Origin: Candidatus Planktophila sp.
Lineage (GTDB): Bacteria; Actinomycetota; Actinomycetes; Nanopelagicales; Nanopelagicaceae
NCBI GenBank assembly: GCA_030681675.1
Contig: JAUXRP010000015.1
Span: 62,001 to 126,000, forward strand
Direction: 5' to 3'
DNA length: 64,000 nt
Shown: positions 2,778-64,000 of the stretch, one piece after another
Position numbering within the stretch: the first letter of the stretch is position 1
Layout of the letters: every line of letters begins with the position of its first letter
Program-made: the position numbers and the translations under genes
Notes under the pieces: generated by a model
The model's database searches: none
What the model was told of the DNA's origin: nothing
What the model saw: the letters and a program-made list of their open reading frames with translations, nothing else

Positions 2778-2918
2778 TCAGGCCGGAATAGCGTCGCAGC
2801 ACCAAATTCCGCCACCAACGGATTGAGTTGTCACAACTTTGCGATCTGGGCTAGCTGCCTGTGCAGGCATTACGGCCAAGAACGAAACGGTCAGGATTAC
2901 GGCAATTATCTTCTTCAC
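2778..2918 (-). CDS. Small secreted peptide, candidate signalling pro-peptide (46 aa)
   Basis: A 46-residue reading frame starting at GTG 2918, preceded by AGGGAG five bases upstream. The N-terminus MKKIIAVILTVSFLAVMPAQ is a classic Sec signal peptide: two lysines, a hydrophobic core, then an AxA-type site (PAQAA). The predicted mature part is about 24 residues and ends GGGIWCCDAIPA, with a Trp-Cys-Cys triad. I do not recognise a family. It starts 77 bases from the divergent HTH-TPR regulator and precedes the GAF gene. Gene size, secretion signal and position next to a TPR regulator suggest a peptide pheromone precursor. It could instead be a small exported structural or antimicrobial peptide. 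The frame and RBS are seen directly; the function is inference. Confidence 0.6.
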   Translation of the reverse strand: MKKIIAVILTVSFLAVMPAQAASPDRKVVTTQSVGGGIWCCDAIPA

Positions 2919-2936
2919 AATATCTCCCTAATAGAC

Positions 2937-2966
2937 TTCACAATTTGTAAAGATTGATTGTAAGAT
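2937..2966 (+). promoter_or_regulatory. Candidate promoter and direct-repeat operator of the HTH-TPR divergon
   Basis: TTCACA (2937-2942) and TAAGAT (2961-2966), 18 bases apart, make a plausible sigma-70-type promoter for the regulator at 2996. Inside it are two near-identical direct repeats, TTGTAAAGAT (2945-2954) and TTGTAAGAT (2958-2966), plus the small palindrome ACAATTTGT (2940-2948). Their position between two divergent starts suits autoregulation by the HTH protein. Judged by eye only. Confidence 0.35.
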
Positions 2967-2995
2967 ATACCAAAACAAAGAGAAAAGGAAGCCCA

Positions 2996-4297
2996 ATGGA
3001 TTTTGGCACTAGGTTAAGAAATCTGCGCGGGGTGGCTGGTCTAACCCAGGCCGAGTTAGCCGATGGTATTTCGGCGGCCAGTTATATTTCACTCTTGGAA
3101 GCTGGAAAGAGAAAGCCAAAGCAGGAATTGGTCGGCCAGCTTGCTTCTCGGTTGGGTGTCTCGGTCGCGGAGTTAATCATTGATCAGGCAGATCAAGAGG
3201 TTGACTGGAGCTTAAATGTGGCTCAAGTAGCCCTGAGTTCTGGCAATCTAGATGATGCCGAAAATTACGCCAGACTAATTATTGAATCGAGTAGAGACGA
3301 TAATGGCGCCAGACTGACTGCCTCGGTGGTGCTCCTCCAGGTACGGGTTCGGCAAGGTGAAGTTGAAGGCGTTCTGGATGAACTTGAACGCCTCTTTGAT
3401 GATCATCCCAAAGCGGCGCCGGATCTCCGCGTCCGTATCGGAAATGAAATTGTCAGAGTCTGTTTTCGATCTGGGAATTTCGGGATGGGGGCCCAGAGAG
3501 GTGAGGAAATGTTACGGGAGTTTGCAACCGCCTGGCCTGAAACAGAGGTCGTTGAGCTGCTCTGCCTTGTAGCAAGGTGTCATTTTCACCGCGGAGACAC
3601 TCAGCGAGCATCCGAATTAGTTGCACGCGCATTGGAGCTGGCCGAGGCGTGTAAATCTCCGAAAGCGATGGTTCAGTCACAGTGGCAAGCATCCATGCTG
3701 GCCGAGAGCCGTGGCGACCTCGCTCTTTCCCTTAACCACATCACAAATGCGTTGCATTGGTCCAAGTTGGCCGAACTCAATAATGTTGTGCCCGTATTGA
3801 ATAATAACGCTGCAAGGATTTTACTAGAACTGCCTAATCCGGATTTGGTTCGGGTTCACAATCTCGCCGAAGCTGCCTACCTTGATTTAGCCGCACAGAA
3901 CAATCCTGTCCCTGCAGCCTATGCCTGTCTCACTCTTTCTGAGGTTGAACTACTCCGAGGCAATCCCTCCACTGCCTTGATGTTTGTTCGAAAAGGCTTA
4001 ACTGAGTTACCAGAAGATGTTCCTGGTCCAAGGGCTAGGTTGCTCTGCCTTGAGGCGAAGGTCCTCTTTAAGTTAGGCATGGTTGAAGAGTCGCAAATTC
4101 AATTAGAACGCGCACTACAACATGCAGTTGATATGGAACCTTCGAAGGAAGTGGCCATATATTGGGGAGAAGTTGCCAGGGTTTTTGTGGAGATGGGTTT
4201 ACAGGAGCGGGCAATTAACGCTTACGAGCAAGCTCTCTCTGCTGCCGCAGTAGCCTCCCAGGCAGAATCGAACACAGTTTTGGGATCTAAAGTCTGA
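2996..4297 (+). CDS. XRE-type HTH transcriptional regulator with TPR domain (RRNPP-like architecture)
   Basis: A 433-residue cytoplasmic regulator. Residues about 5-60 are an XRE/Cro-type helix-turn-helix (RLRNLRGVAGLTQAELADG, then YISLLEAGKRKP). Residues about 75-425 are helical repeats with TPR spacing, for example LDDAENYARLII and LQERAINAYEQALSAA. HTH plus TPR is the architecture of the peptide-sensing RRNPP receptors (Rgg, PlcR, NprR), and the length is close to NprR. The ATG at 2996 has AAAAGGAA just upstream; in-frame codons before it lack an RBS. It is divergent from a tiny secreted-peptide gene, as in rgg/shp pairs. Binding of that peptide is inference: HTH-TPR proteins in actinobacteria may sense other things. 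Its last codons overlap the start of a pilB fragment in another frame. Confidence 0.8.
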   Translation: MDFGTRLRNLRGVAGLTQAELADGISAASYISLLEAGKRKPKQELVGQLASRLGVSVAELIIDQADQEVDWSLNVAQVALSSGNLDDAENYARLIIESSRDDNGARLTASVVLLQVRVRQGEVEGVLDELERLFDDHPKAAPDLRVRIGNEIVRVCFRSGNFGMGAQRGEEMLREFATAWPETEVVELLCLVARCHFHRGDTQRASELVARALELAEACKSPKAMVQSQWQASMLAESRGDLALSLNHITNALHWSKLAELNNVVPVLNNNAARILLELPNPDLVRVHNLAEAAYLDLAAQNNPVPAAYACLTLSEVELLRGNPSTALMFVRKGLTELPEDVPGPRARLLCLEAKVLFKLGMVEESQIQLERALQHAVDMEPSKEVAIYWGEVARVFVEMGLQERAINAYEQALSAAAVASQAESNTVLGSKV

Positions 4298-4555: not shown

Positions 4556-4617
4556 TAACCTTGCTGCATTGAAAGATGTAAATCCAACGTGAAAAACGAC
4601 ATACATAGGAGATGAAA

Positions 4618-4743
4618 ATGACCGAAGCCACAATTGAACTCATCGAAAAGCAGTGCGGATGTTCTGCCGAGGGTGGCAAGTGCTGTTCTGATACTGGTAC
4701 ACAGTCGGAAGCCAAGGCCGAGTGCACGTGCGGTGAGAATTAA
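4618..4743 (+). CDS. Small Cys-rich protein, metallothionein-like (41 aa)
   Basis: A 41-residue frame with a good RBS (AGGAG six bases before ATG 4618). It has six cysteines in the pattern CxC, CC, CxC (residues 13, 15, 22, 23, 36, 38), no histidine, and many Glu, Lys and Ser. There is no signal peptide or membrane segment, so it should be cytosolic. Spacing and composition suit a small metal-binding protein like bacterial metallothioneins, but I do not recognise a defined family. It stands alone between the pilB remnant and the collagen-like gene. A Cys-containing RiPP precursor is an alternative, though no modifying enzyme is present. Confidence 0.6.
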   Translation: MTEATIELIEKQCGCSAEGGKCCSDTGTQSEAKAECTCGEN

Positions 4744-4923: not shown

Positions 4924-5973
4924 ATGTCAATACATCTATGGCGTTCGCGCTTGCAATTTTTAGGAACCACTAAAAAGATAGTTGTTTTGTCGCTTATTTC
5001 TCTGTTTTTTTCTGCCTCCTTTTCAACCTCGGCATCTGCTTCAAATCACGTGCTCAATGGCCCTATAGTTTTAGGTGGCTCAAGTACCGTTAAAGTTTCT
5101 CCGGCGGCTTCAAGTACGAAGAACTTATTAGATGGGCCTATAAAGATATCTTCGACGGGCTCTGCCTCTGTTTCTAAGACATCAACTCCTTCTCCAGTGC
5201 AGAATAATAATTCAAACTCCGATCCATCGGGTTTGTTAGCTGGCCCAATTAATATTTCCTCTAATGGAGAGGCGAAGGCGCTTGGAACGACTGTTACAAC
5301 CGGTGAAGCTGGAGCAAGTGGCCCACAAGGCCCTGCTGGCCCACAAGGCCCTGCTGGAGCAACTGGAGCAACTGGAGCAAAGGGTGATACTGGAGCAACT
5401 GGAGCAACTGGAGCAACTGGAGCAACTGGTCCAAAGGGCGATAAGGGCGAAACTGGTCTTCAAGGTATACAGGGAATGCAAGGCGCAATTGGCCCACAAG
5501 GTCCGCAGGGCGTTGCCGGCGCTAAGGGTGAAACTGGTGCACAAGGTGCACAAGGTGAACAAGGTATTCAAGGTATTCAAGGTATTCAGGGCGAAAAGGG
5601 CGAAAAGGGCGATCAGGGTATTCAGGGCGAAAAGGGCGATCAGGGTATTCAAGGTATTCAAGGCGAAACTGGTGCAACTGGTGCAACTGGCCCACAAGGC
5701 CCAATTGGTTTACAAGGGATTCAAGGTCCAATTGGCCTAACTGGTGCAACTGGGGCCGTTGGCCCACAGGGCATAAAGGGCGATAAGGGCGATAAGGGCG
5801 ATAAGGGCGATACTGGTCCTCAGGGTCCTGCCGGTCCTGCTGGATCTAGTGGACCAGCGTTCCCTGTCTGTGTCAATAATTCTAGCGGCGAAATGAAGTG
5901 GGGCGCTTGTAAAAAGGAATCAGGTGACGAGGAATCAAATAAAACTACAATGTACGTAATAGTCAAAGCTTAA
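4924..5973 (+). CDS. Secreted collagen-like (Gly-X-Y repeat) surface protein
   Basis: A 349-residue protein preceded by AAGGAGG. Residues about 17-40 form a Sec signal peptide. Residues 41-125 contain three copies of a motif of the form L-L-x-G-P-I-x-I followed by Ser-rich linker ([24 protein letters not shown]). Residues about 127-314 are roughly 60 uninterrupted Gly-X-Y triplets ([22 protein letters not shown]), which should form a collagen triple helix. The tail of about 35 residues has two cysteines. There is no LPXTG or transmembrane anchor, so it is either released or held by partners. The two membrane-anchored genes following on the same strand are natural candidates. Such proteins commonly form surface fibres or adhesins; this role is inference. 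Confidence 0.88.
5302..5866 (+). repeat. In-gene tandem repeats encoding Gly-X-Y triplets
   Basis: Nine-base units of the GGNxxNxxN type repeat through this stretch, with runs of GGAGCAACT, GGTATTCAA and GGCGATAAG. Such tracts are prone to slipped-strand length change. The long frames on other strands here are by-products of the repeat. Confidence 0.85.
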
Positions 5974-5989: not shown

Positions 5990-6619
5990 ATGGTTGTAGC
6001 TCCAGTAGATCGAATTGCTCAAAATAGGCGCAAATTACAGTTTTTAAAGTATGCTGGAGTCGCGATATTCTTCTCACTATTAACTTTTTCAGTGACTTTG
6101 GCGGCTTTTTCAGGCTCAAGAACGGTCAACCTCGCCCTTGTTCAACCCGATGGAACCTCAGTTTCACCTACACCAACTGCCAATCCAAATAGCTCAGGAC
6201 AAGTGGCACTCACTGAATCCGAGTTAATCTCTGCCGTAAAAGCCGCTGGGGGTTCAATTTACTGGATTGGACCATCTGCAGGCGCTAAGTACACCTTTAA
6301 TCGTGTCTCGGAAGATCAAAATTTCATTCGCTATCTTCCTGGTGGCACCGGACTAGCAGACACAGCGGAAAATTATCGAATTATCGCTACATATACAGAT
6401 CCCACGGCTTATGAAACGATGAAAAAAGCGGGAGAAACTACAAATGGCGTAAGTTTTACTAATCCTGATGGTTCGATCGTTTATTACCTAAAAGCCTCTC
6501 CTTTGCACGTCTATCTCGCCTTTAAAAATTTTGGATATCAAATCGAAATTTTCGATCCAACCCCTGGTGAAGCGCTTAAAATAGCTACAACCCCAGGTAT
6601 ACTTAAAGTGATTAAATGA
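5990..6619 (+). CDS. Membrane-anchored protein of unknown function
   Basis: A 209-residue protein with a basic cytoplasmic N-terminus, one transmembrane helix at about residues 21-41, then an extracytoplasmic domain. A Thr/Pro/Ser linker (SPTPTANP) follows the helix. The remaining 150 residues are a mixed alpha/beta-looking region (GGSIYWIGPSAGAKYTF, GSIVYYLKASPLHVYLAF). I recognise no family. It begins 16 bases after the collagen-like gene with AAAGGA upstream, so the two are probably one transcription unit. It may help anchor or export the collagen-like fibre; this rests on position alone. Confidence 0.75.
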   Translation: MVVAPVDRIAQNRRKLQFLKYAGVAIFFSLLTFSVTLAAFSGSRTVNLALVQPDGTSVSPTPTANPNSSGQVALTESELISAVKAAGGSIYWIGPSAGAKYTFNRVSEDQNFIRYLPGGTGLADTAENYRIIATYTDPTAYETMKKAGETTNGVSFTNPDGSIVYYLKASPLHVYLAFKNFGYQIEIFDPTPGEALKIATTPGILKVIK

Positions 6620-6670
6620 CAGGGGCGAGATGTAAATGGAGCTAATTTAAGCGAAAGGAGGTACGCCGAA

Positions 6671-7702
6671 ATGACTGATGAAATTCCCGCATCAAGTCAA
6701 GTTAGACCAGAAGATGAAGCGCAAGGTCAGAAGATGACTATCTATATGCCGCAAGGCGCTGTAATTATTGAAAAATCAGAGCAGGAAGAGCGAGTGAATT
6801 CGGCTACCCAAAATCCTTCAGAGACAAAACCAGCTGCTCCAAAAACAGGAGTTGATTCAGTTCAATCACTTGGTTCCGTCATCAACATTTACACAGGTGA
6901 TGAATACGGTGGAGTAAAGGAACAGAGCAATTCAAAGGTTCTCTCTGCCGATAGCGCACTAGTGAGTGAGCAACAAGTTCTTCTGCGCATCAGCGAGATG
7001 TTGGATGTAATCACCAAACGGTTAGACCATGAAGCTCAACCAATGGAATTAGTCCATGAAGTTCAACCGACAAATTCGGTCAATTCACACACACATGGTG
7101 TTGAAGCGATTGAAGAGAAGAGCGCGATCTCTTCAGATATGCATGATGTTGAAAAAAATTCCTTATCGATTGGGCATCACTTCGATTGGATGCACGCCTT
7201 CAACTTGATGTATATCTCCTTAATTCTCTTCTCGCTACTTTTGCCCGCGGGTTTACACAGCTTTCTCGGCACAGAAGTTATTCCCGCCTTAACAAGTTAT
7301 GAAGTCGCTGGAATTCAAAAAGGAGATCTACTTATTACGGAAGAGGCACTAGCGTCCAACTTAGTCGTTGGTGATGTTCTTTCTCTCCGCGATGCTTTTT
7401 CGGGTACATCTGAGATAGTCCAAGTTAGCGAAATTTCAGTTCCGGGTGAAAATGGCCTAATAACTTTAGCCATACCACCTCGAGCAGGTCAGACTCTTAG
7501 TCTTTCTTATACTCTAAATGGAGATTCAGAAGTCTATAAAGTTGTAAAATCTGTTCCGACGCTAGGCACTGCGAAGATGTTACTTGATATGTTTTTCGTG
7601 CAATTTTTCATCGTGACTTTCGTTATTCTGTTAAATACTATCGTGCATTATCGAAGGCACCGCAGATATACAAAAGCTCTTAGAGCATTCGCCAGTCAAT
7701 AA
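6671..7702 (+). CDS. Two-helix membrane protein with a signal-peptidase-like extracytoplasmic domain
   Basis: A 343-residue protein preceded by a strong AAAGGAGG. Residues 1-175 are hydrophilic, low-complexity and probably cytoplasmic. TM1 is at about 176-198 and TM2 at about 303-326, followed by a short basic tail. The external domain (199-302) has the pattern IQKGDLLITEE, LVVGDVLSLRD, EIVQVSEIS, which recalls the beta-fold of S26/SipW-type signal peptidases. The catalytic Ser and Lys/His motifs are not seen. It may be a non-catalytic relative that processes or holds surface proteins, or the likeness may be superficial. It is third in the collagen-like gene group and its end overlaps the convergent response regulator by 7 bases. 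Confidence 0.7.
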   Translation: MTDEIPASSQVRPEDEAQGQKMTIYMPQGAVIIEKSEQEERVNSATQNPSETKPAAPKTGVDSVQSLGSVINIYTGDEYGGVKEQSNSKVLSADSALVSEQQVLLRISEMLDVITKRLDHEAQPMELVHEVQPTNSVNSHTHGVEAIEEKSAISSDMHDVEKNSLSIGHHFDWMHAFNLMYISLILFSLLLPAGLHSFLGTEVIPALTSYEVAGIQKGDLLITEEALASNLVVGDVLSLRDAFSGTSEIVQVSEISVPGENGLITLAIPPRAGQTLSLSYTLNGDSEVYKVVKSVPTLGTAKMLLDMFFVQFFIVTFVILLNTIVHYRRHRRYTKALRAFASQ

Positions 7703-8385
7703 TTTTTAGGGCTTTTAATTATTTTATTTCGAATAGCTTGAGTGATTGCTTCGGTGCGCGATGAGGTTCCCAACTTTTGGGAGATTGTGCGTATATCTGA
7801 CTCCACGTCGCGCTTACTAATAGAGAGCGCCTTAGCGATATCTTTGTCGCTCGCGCCGATGGAGGCCATTTTGAGAATTTCTATCTCGCGCCTAGAAAGA
7901 ACGCTGGCAGTAACAGGGGGTTGGCTCAAGGCAGTTAACATATCCCGGGTCACCGCTAAAGAGAGAATTGGAATGCCCTGGACGACCTTGAAGATAGCCT
8001 CTTGCAGTTCAGGCGCGGCGACGGATTTGAGCAAATATCCGCTAGCTCCTGCCTTGAGCGCTAATTTAATATCCTCCATTTTGTCATCAGAGGAGAGGAT
8101 AATAATGTGGGTCTCAGGAAAATCCGCCTTGATATTTCTAGTGGTCTCAATTCCAGATATTCCTGGCATATTCAGATCTAGCAAAATTACATTAGGCCGC
8201 AGAGCAGCAGTCGATGATTGGGCCTCAATTCCATCACTGGCCTCACCGACCAGTATGACGCGCCCGCCCATTGCCTTGATCCGCTCGCAGACACCGAACC
8301 TAAAAATTGGGTGATCATCCACAACAAGGACGCGGATAGGCGACCCATCTGAATCTATTAGATTTGCCGGCTCTTCCGTTTTCAT
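7696..8385 (-). CDS. NarL/LuxR-family response regulator
   Basis: A 229-residue two-domain regulator. The receiver domain covers residues about 17-135, with acidic pair VVDDHP, phospho-acceptor Asp70 in ILLDLNMPG, and the conserved Thr/Ser and Lys positions in IILSSDD and YLLKS. The C-terminal LuxR-type HTH runs from about 158 (SRREIEILKMASIGASDKDI) to 215. No histidine kinase is adjacent on the same strand. The hybrid kinase starting at 8709 is divergent, and its own receivers are internal, so partnership is possible but unproven. It may regulate the convergent collagen-like locus. Confidence 0.9.
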   Translation of the reverse strand: MKTEEPANLIDSDGSPIRVLVVDDHPIFRFGVCERIKAMGGRVILVGEASDGIEAQSSTAALRPNVILLDLNMPGISGIETTRNIKADFPETHIIILSSDDKMEDIKLALKAGASGYLLKSVAAPELQEAIFKVVQGIPILSLAVTRDMLTALSQPPVTASVLSRREIEILKMASIGASDKDIAKALSISKRDVESDIRTISQKLGTSSRTEAITQAIRNKIIKSPKNY

Positions 8386-8481
8386 GGTATACGAGTATCC
8401 TTCAATTCACTAAGTTACGTCAACCATGCGACGAGATGCACTTTATTTCACAGGCCCAATAGATGAGTCTCGTCGGGGGAA

Positions 8482-63769: not shown

Positions 63770-64000
63770 ATGGCGCGCCATTTTCTTTTAACTGCCGATG
63801 GTGGTTCGCGAGGCAATCCTGGTCCTGCAGGTTATGGCGCGGTTATTACTGAAAATGGCGCAATAATTGCAGAGCTCTATGACTTTATTGGAATAGGAAC
63901 TAATAATGTCGCAGAATACAGCGGACTTATTGCAGGTTTAACCGCGATTAACGCTATGGACCCAAACGCAACCGTTGATGTAAAGATGGATAGTAAATTA
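63770..64000 (+). CDS. RNase HI domain protein (5' part, cut by window end)
   Basis: The first 77 codons of an RNase H-fold protein that degrades RNA in RNA-DNA hybrids. Active-site carboxylates visible are Asp in LTADGGSRGNPGPAGYGAV, Glu in NVAEYSGLIAG and Asp in VKMDSK. In actinobacteria this gene often continues into an acid-phosphatase domain (RnhA-CobC fusion), which cannot be checked here. It starts 4 bases after the zinc-ribbon gene. Confidence 0.88.
   Translation, partial: MARHFLLTADGGSRGNPGPAGYGAVITENGAIIAELYDFIGIGTNNVAEYSGLIAGLTAINAMDPNATVDVKMDSKL

Follow-up and report, generated by a model that had tools for sequence, protein, structure and literature searches.

Does the divergent gene pair at the beginning of the window, a short frame with a signal peptide beside an XRE-HTH/TPR regulator gene, encode a peptide signalling system of the RRNPP type in a freshwater actinobacterium? 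The window is the whole stretch of 64,000 nucleotides analysed here (C15:62001-126000), part of a 1.83-Mb genome. In the available text of the RRNPP survey PMC10075063, the signals of Actinobacteria are typically small molecules made by enzymes, and RRNPP systems are those of Firmicutes. The available text of the review PMC4748050 discusses gamma-butyrolactones and "cyclic or modified peptides", and the words Rgg, PlcR and tetratricopeptide do not occur in it. A literature search on peptide signalling, which covered neither bioRxiv nor the majority of subscription papers, turned up no description of such a system in Actinobacteria.

Overall, we consider it probable, at roughly 80%, that the two genes make up an RRNPP-like system of peptide signalling in Actinomycetota, with pheromones of a new Cys-Cys class, as judged from sequence comparisons and a structure model. 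The in silico support consists of a conserved gene pair, a Cys-Cys tail, the clustering of peptide class with receptor clade, an RRNPP-type fold and a conserved operator. From the sequences we infer that the regulator senses the peptide.

Layout of the gene pair

A sequence-only reading of this DNA had described a 46-residue frame with a ribosome-binding site and a Sec signal peptide, 77 bases from a divergent regulator. This layout was confirmed by ORF coordinates and Pfam; the 77 bases separate the GTG of the peptide gene from the ATG of the regulator gene at 2996. The two genes and their parts are:

2778-2918, minus strand: propeptide gene, 46 aa, MKKIIAVILTVSFLAVMPAQA / ASPDRKVVTTQSVGGGIWCCDAIPA; ORF with GTG start, a frame of this kind being present in 15/15 readable family loci
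2856-2918, minus strand: Sec signal peptide by sequence, residues 1-21, with KK n-region, hydrophobic core and AQA motif
2796-2801, minus strand: Cys-Cys pair by sequence, TGC TGC codons, followed by DAIPA
2924-2929, minus strand: ribosome-binding site AGGGAG of the peptide gene; an RBS-like block is aligned here in 11 family loci
2996-4297, plus strand: XRE-HTH regulator with Rap/NprR-like TPR domain, 433 aa, putative intracellular peptide receptor (Pfam, profile, AF2 model and fold search)

Judging from its sequence, the window peptide would be cleaved by signal peptidase after residues 1-21, and these residues are identical in the peptide of locus L025. The micropeptide ends in QSVGGGIWCCDAIPA, with the Cys-Cys pair not at the C-terminus. 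The residues after the pair differ or are missing in relatives and may be trimmed or tolerated. The vicinal cysteines themselves may act as free thiols, as a vicinal disulfide or as an element of recognition. For none of the micropeptides scanned, the window peptide included, did Pfam or NCBIfam give a family above cut-off.

Downstream of the regulator lie a 43-aa Cys-rich frame (4612-4743, plus strand; CGCS..KCC..CTCG), metallothionein-like by eye, and a secreted collagen-like protein (4924-5973, plus strand), behind which come two unknown frames and then a response regulator. Beyond 4302 the window is rearranged relative to two family genomes, G236 and G359, as follows for G359 from the part 6003-8400, which in that genome flanks the pair on the side of the peptide gene.

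Domains and predicted fold of the regulator

Pfam assigns HTH_3/HTH_31 and TPR repeats to the regulator, all of them generic models, and NCBIfam gave sub-threshold matches only; no Rgg/MutR family model was among the Pfam or NCBIfam matches to E 1. A profile of the regulator family matched PlcR (2qfc) with an E-value of 8.7e-15 over the HTH and the first TPRs, which made PlcR the top natural protein in this search, behind designed TPRs. The AF2 model of the regulator (pLDDT 92.5, pTM 0.82) was then compared with known structures. Foldseek placed Rap-CSF at ranks 1-2 and PlcR-PapR at rank 3. With VIA-align, Rap took the first seven rows (Z 28.7-26.6, the best over residues 66-424), followed by NprR (Z 25.4 over 61-418) and AimR (Z 20.6), the Rap and NprR rows having an identity of 9-16%; PlcR was not among the 50 rows listed. 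Unrelated TPR proteins (LGN, APC/C) reached Z values of up to 25.4, equal to NprR. In the RRNPP(A) group, the receptor has a TPR domain with the Rap/NprR/PlcR/AimR fold, in most cases preceded by an XRE HTH, and the model of the regulator has this architecture, with other TPR folds scoring nearly as high. The proposal of an RRNPP-like receptor thus gains support from the profile and the predicted fold, which place the regulator with PlcR, Rap and NprR.

NprR-NprX and Rap-Phr of Bacillus are accordingly the best fold matches. NprR combines an HTH with a long TPR array, as does the present regulator; Rap has no HTH. The two differ from the present system in their low sequence identity and in gene order, as the nprX and phr peptide genes lie downstream of the receptor gene whereas the peptide gene is divergent here. 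PlcR-PapR of the Bacillus cereus group differs in length (280-293 residues in PlcR, compared with 433 aa), and the tail of PapR is unrelated to the tails described below. The TPR regulators of the NsdA family gave a weak TPR match of 29.7 bits, far under the 75-bit cut-off. Two family genomes (G512 and G542; loci L199 and L206) encode TPR-only paralogues of about 370 aa, which match residues 68-423 of the regulator at 49% identity; they have neither an HTH nor a CC frame and resemble Rap in architecture.

Pairing of regulator and peptide within the family

Among 251 genomes drawn from the family, 17 carry the regulator at E<=1e-15. The sequence-only reading had raised the question whether a small signal-peptide frame always lies divergent to the regulator in relatives. 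In the family genomes drawn, this is the case at all 15 of the 15 loci in which the HTH end and the upstream side are readable, and each of these frames has a CC within 10 residues of its end. Stops or frameshifts in the peptide frame, which would have spoken against the pair, were seen in none of these loci. Two of the 17 could not be assessed, one in which a contig end cuts the regulator (G477) and one with fragments, two of them with stops (G507). At another contig end of G477, there is a frame ending in ..GGGEWCC. When matches at E<=0.0032 that form their own small frame are counted, the window peptide itself occurs in 7/17 regulator genomes and in 0 of the 234 others; a match at this threshold inside a 270-aa frame (G367) was dropped and weaker peptide matches were left uncounted. 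An adjacent small propeptide gene with an export signal, as is characteristic of RRNPP(A) systems, is therefore present. Among 80 named loci, the best of 537 relatives, the closest regulator (90% identical) comes from a MAG titled Candidatus Planktophila sp.; the genus of the window genome is accordingly called Planktophila here, and its family Nanopelagicaceae.

Cys-Cys tails across Actinomycetota

In a class-wide draw of 394 genomes, 68 had regulator matches at E<=1e-12, and in loci from this draw we first noticed signal-peptide ORFs that end in CC. With the regulator profile alone, 80 named loci were fetched (the best 80 of the 537 relatives). In these, 50 of the 112 signal-peptide-like ORFs within 700 bp of the regulator end exactly in CC, compared with 3/160 farther away. 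For a held-out test, 17 loci with regulators already in the discovery set were removed. An exact-CC signal-peptide ORF lies near the regulator in 34 of the 63 remaining loci, and a CC end was found in 35/90 near signal-peptide ORFs versus 3/113 far ones (p=2e-11), the signal-peptide and CC criteria having been fixed after the first examples. Of the three far ORFs, one lies about 0.9 kb downstream of its own regulator (L114) and another adjoins a second family regulator (L177). Nine weak XRE-TPR loci served as controls, none of which has a CC peptide beside the regulator; at L018 a CC frame lies inside a regulator gene.

The tallied set comprises 156 loci, or 139 regulators after removal of redundancy, and spans many actinobacterial families. 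For 88 of the 139, an exact-CC signal-peptide ORF lies within 700 bp; 57 of these ORFs are divergent, 22 convergent, 6 on the same strand downstream and 3 on the same strand upstream. For a further 16/139, no more than 10 residues separate CC from the end of the frame; L079, at the least, is a chance frame among these. No CC frame was found within 700 bp for the remaining 35/139 (31 with none, and 4 with none and short flanks). The pairing predicted for regulator homologues thus holds at all readable loci of the family and fails, as far as a CC-bearing signal-peptide frame within 700 bp is concerned, for 35 of the 139 regulators of the wider set. Among these 35, L093 and L114 have a CC frame slightly beyond the criterion, and in six (plus L079) a divergent signal-peptide frame ends in a different tail; others seem to be without any, and for some regulator clades no candidate peptide frame was found.

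Of 91 distinct CC peptides, 62 have L, F, Y, G, W or M at position -3; P, G and D are abundant at -4 to -6, and both Cys codons are used. The named hosts of the regulator include Streptomyces, Kitasatospora, Jiangella, Nocardioides, Nonomuraea, Acrocarpospora and Actinomadura. Both the Cys-Cys tail and the wide spread are new in this analysis and were absent from the sequence-only reading.

Some loci have additional features. Jiangella-type loci (L134, L136, L036, L044) have, downstream of the same regulator, another CC peptide in convergent orientation that ends in ..PDGGSDFCC or similar, and at L168, L177, L178 and L149 two family regulators are near each other. On Streptomyces linear plasmids (L243, L242), the regulator is found near P450, BTAD regulator or NRPS-type genes. 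The CC peptide of pSMg1-1 (L243, 7538-7753) is annotated as hypothetical protein WP_008741297.1; at L242 the regulator is present and no CC frame was found.

Other tails and co-variation with the receptor

In one family of the class (f17; L059, L067, L070, L071, L075, L079, L081), the divergent signal-peptide frame lacks CC. The tails are W-x-x-P-G/I-like in 5/7, WNGPW in L070 and different in L075, and the seven W-P-type loci form one clade on the receptor tree with a support of 100. Furthermore, in a draw from the phylum the regulator was found in 39 of 396 genomes (E<=1e-25). At 16 of the 25 fetched loci outside the class, a divergent signal-peptide frame of 28-55 aa with a short tail was identified by eye, e.g. 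FPWPK, YPWPK, NWPHH, GWPKH or PWPHCC, a motif defined after it had been seen. Four same-class loci of this draw (L357, L359-L361) have no CC frame.

These variants bear on the idea that the short frame is a cis-acting leader sensing cysteine via its Cys codons and not a secreted signal. Such a leader would fit with the two Cys codons, which are located at the stop or close to it; the signal-peptide feature is kept, however, and non-CC variants exist. As the frame is divergent, convergent or on the same strand depending on the clade, it cannot be a common leader, and we regard this explanation as extremely improbable.

For the preferred reading as a pheromone and its receptor, co-variation of the two partners is of interest, as peptide tails of RRNPP(A) systems diversify along with their receptors. 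On the receptor tree, loci alike in peptide class and orientation cluster together (34 changes compared with a shuffled mean of 72.9), a signal confounded with ancestry, and by eye the tail letters are alike within clades (DIPLCC, WPGMCC, SGASGACC and others). In the TPR domain, column 231 beside the invariant W230 is N in 82/88 exact-CC receptors and A, G or Q in 7/7 W-P-type receptors; in 14 receptors without a found CC peptide, picked from the 35, it is E in 7, N in 5 and Q in 2, and the window regulator has Q, all differences in this column being confounded with ancestry. A lack of co-variation would, by the sequence-only reading, have spoken against the pair; the clustering and the differences in column 231 may reflect co-variation or shared ancestry.

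Between the peptides of the window and L025, a single sequence pair, there are 7.8 nonsynonymous versus 0.17 synonymous changes; every residue change falls in the mature part, and pN/pS of the regulator is 0.27. Eight Jiangella-type peptides have ratios of 0.29-0.44 and are under purifying selection.

Could the micropeptide instead be secreted as an effector, with a redox, metal-binding or antimicrobial role, and its gene be controlled by a regulator that senses something else? Cys-Cys is chemically reactive, divergent pairs of regulator and target are common, and several lineages have the regulator without a detected peptide. On the other hand, the peptide class follows the receptor clade, W-P tails replace CC where the gene pair persists, which is unexpected for a metal or redox effector, and the modelled receptor fold is nearest to those of peptide receptors. 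We therefore consider an effector unlikely.

A putative operator between the two genes

The sequence-only reading had placed a possible operator in the shared promoter, in the form of direct repeats. These are present (TTGTAAAGAT, 2945-2954, and TTGTAAGAT, 2958-2966). Comparison of 11 family loci upholds the location and suggests a dyad as the element in place of a direct repeat: conserved are CTTYAC-N5-GTAAAG followed by a TTGTAA- or TAGTAA-like third half-site, and the direct repeat is the right-hand side of this element.

2936-2952, no strand assigned: putative operator dyad CTTCAC-AATTT-GTAAAG; CTTTAC-N5-GTAAAG in relatives
2958-2966, plus strand: third half-site TTGTAAGAT, overlapping a -10-like hexamer (alignment, pattern search)

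A pattern built solely on regulator promoters was searched for in 16 genomes, with the backward pattern as control. At <=3 mismatches it gave 29 rows, compared with 4 for the control; 10 rows are regulator promoters, and the remaining 19, several of them with 3 mismatches, fall at 13 places. In the window genome, the extended pattern at <=3 mismatches matches nowhere but at the autoregulatory site, and a search of the window gave no further operator, apart from a chance-like pair of sites at 63979. Another 98 genomes of the genus, part of them searched for the regulator, gave 13 rows with 3 mismatches and none with <=2 (backward control, 38); the three genomes of the genus with the regulator gave 7 rows at <=2 mismatches, at 5 places or fewer. 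Receptors of RRNPP(A) systems control target promoters, often their own; here the putative operator appears conserved in sequence at the regulator's own promoter and at pilin promoters.

Related sites at type IV pilin genes

In six family genomes (G149, G427, G477, G487, G497, G502), a predicted operator precedes the pilin gene that follows pilC; by Pfam, pilC is T2SSF, the pilin N_methyl, and pilB T2SSE and MshEN. In G236 and G359, it lies 75-95 bp after the regulator, before a relic pseudopilin. Other places are next to pilB (G477), ahead of the gene for a secreted low-complexity protein (G427) and within a gene (G512). The relic of these two Planktophila genomes (L253, 1601-2053; L252, 927-1379) keeps TTIATATQIVN of the pseudopilin of the pilus operon and has no N_methyl match. 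In G149 (L255, 1501-1648; G149:C2 near 891135), two tandem operators stand before a duplicated, decayed copy of the peptide gene, of which the signal peptide alone remains, with transposase-like frames nearby.

From the pilin and relic sites, a palindrome with four half-sites was written, TTACA-N6-CTTTACA-N3-TGTAAAG-N6-TGTAA. These sites have 0-4 mismatches of 24 and four regulator promoters 4-7, compared with 8-11 at best in 39 background loci. The palindrome is absent at the G512 pilin and from the stretches fetched for G492 and G542.

A pilC at >=79% identity is present in 8/251 family genomes, and 7 of these 8 are among the 13 genomes with a close regulator (E<=2.3e-53; p=1e-9, a post hoc and genus-confounded comparison). 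The eighth, G557, has no detected regulator. In 15 further family genomes pilC is more distant (30-33%), and one has a short fragment at 67%. None of the three Planktophila genomes that encode the regulator has the pilC at >=79% identity, and two of them keep the relic pseudopilin under the operator; the window genome has no pilC at E<=1e-10 and no relic pseudopilin. Near the 80 named loci, the pilin motif gave a single chance-like match, so the pilus link is seen only within the family. As a related operator precedes the pilin gene in relatives, type IV pili, serving adhesion, motility or DNA uptake, are a likely output in the family.

The pilin sites also bear on a further explanation, a membrane micropeptide toxin silenced by the XRE regulator in a toxin-antitoxin or phage-type module. 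It would account for a small hydrophobic peptide adjoining an XRE regulator, and the HTH matches antitoxin and phage-repressor models, all below their cut-offs. Against it stand the C-terminal motif, which is conserved beyond the hydrophobic part, the related operator at pilin genes and the scarcity of phage matches; we consider a toxin very unlikely. A phage origin was itself rejected: nine matches in viral contigs all fall on the N-terminal part of the regulator, and a phage collection gave one partial match (60% coverage) on an unannotated 11.9-kb faecal scaffold, of which the 5-kb stretch has no CC frame.

Discussion

In RRNPP(A) systems, the peptide is exported, matured, re-imported by an oligopeptide permease and bound in the TPR groove. 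For the peptide signalling system that we favour, the following course can be proposed. Sec would export the micropeptide, and its trimmed product, a short tail around G-G-I-W-C-C, would re-enter the cell through an oligopeptide permease and bind in the TPR groove. Re-import appears feasible because the window genome encodes five SBP_bac_5 proteins. Peptide binding would alter the seating of the regulator on the CTTYAC-N5-GTAAAG operator between both promoters and thereby feed back on its own genes, and the regulator would also control further operons carrying a related operator.

Among known systems, Rgg-SHP and ComRS of streptococci likewise have a short secreted peptide beside, and often divergent from, an XRE-HTH/TPR regulator. 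The tails of SHP are hydrophobic and those of the ComRS type have WW, and ComRS governs competence, its pilus included; comX is reported to be ComR-dependent. The present system differs in that it belongs to another phylum, matched no Rgg model and has CC or W-P tails.

If our reading is correct, a linear-peptide system with an intracellular receptor would exist in Streptomyces, Jiangella, Nocardioides, Nonomuraea and freshwater lineages. The Cys-Cys tails suggest synthetic peptides, and signalling circuits would become open to testing in antibiotic producers as well as in lake bacteria. We see a somewhat better than even chance that Actinomycetota have their own widespread quorum sensing by peptides with intracellular receptors, using CC pheromones and, in other clades, W-P-tailed ones, small enough for annotation to miss, and that freshwater members control type IV pili, and possibly DNA uptake, by such cell-cell signalling.
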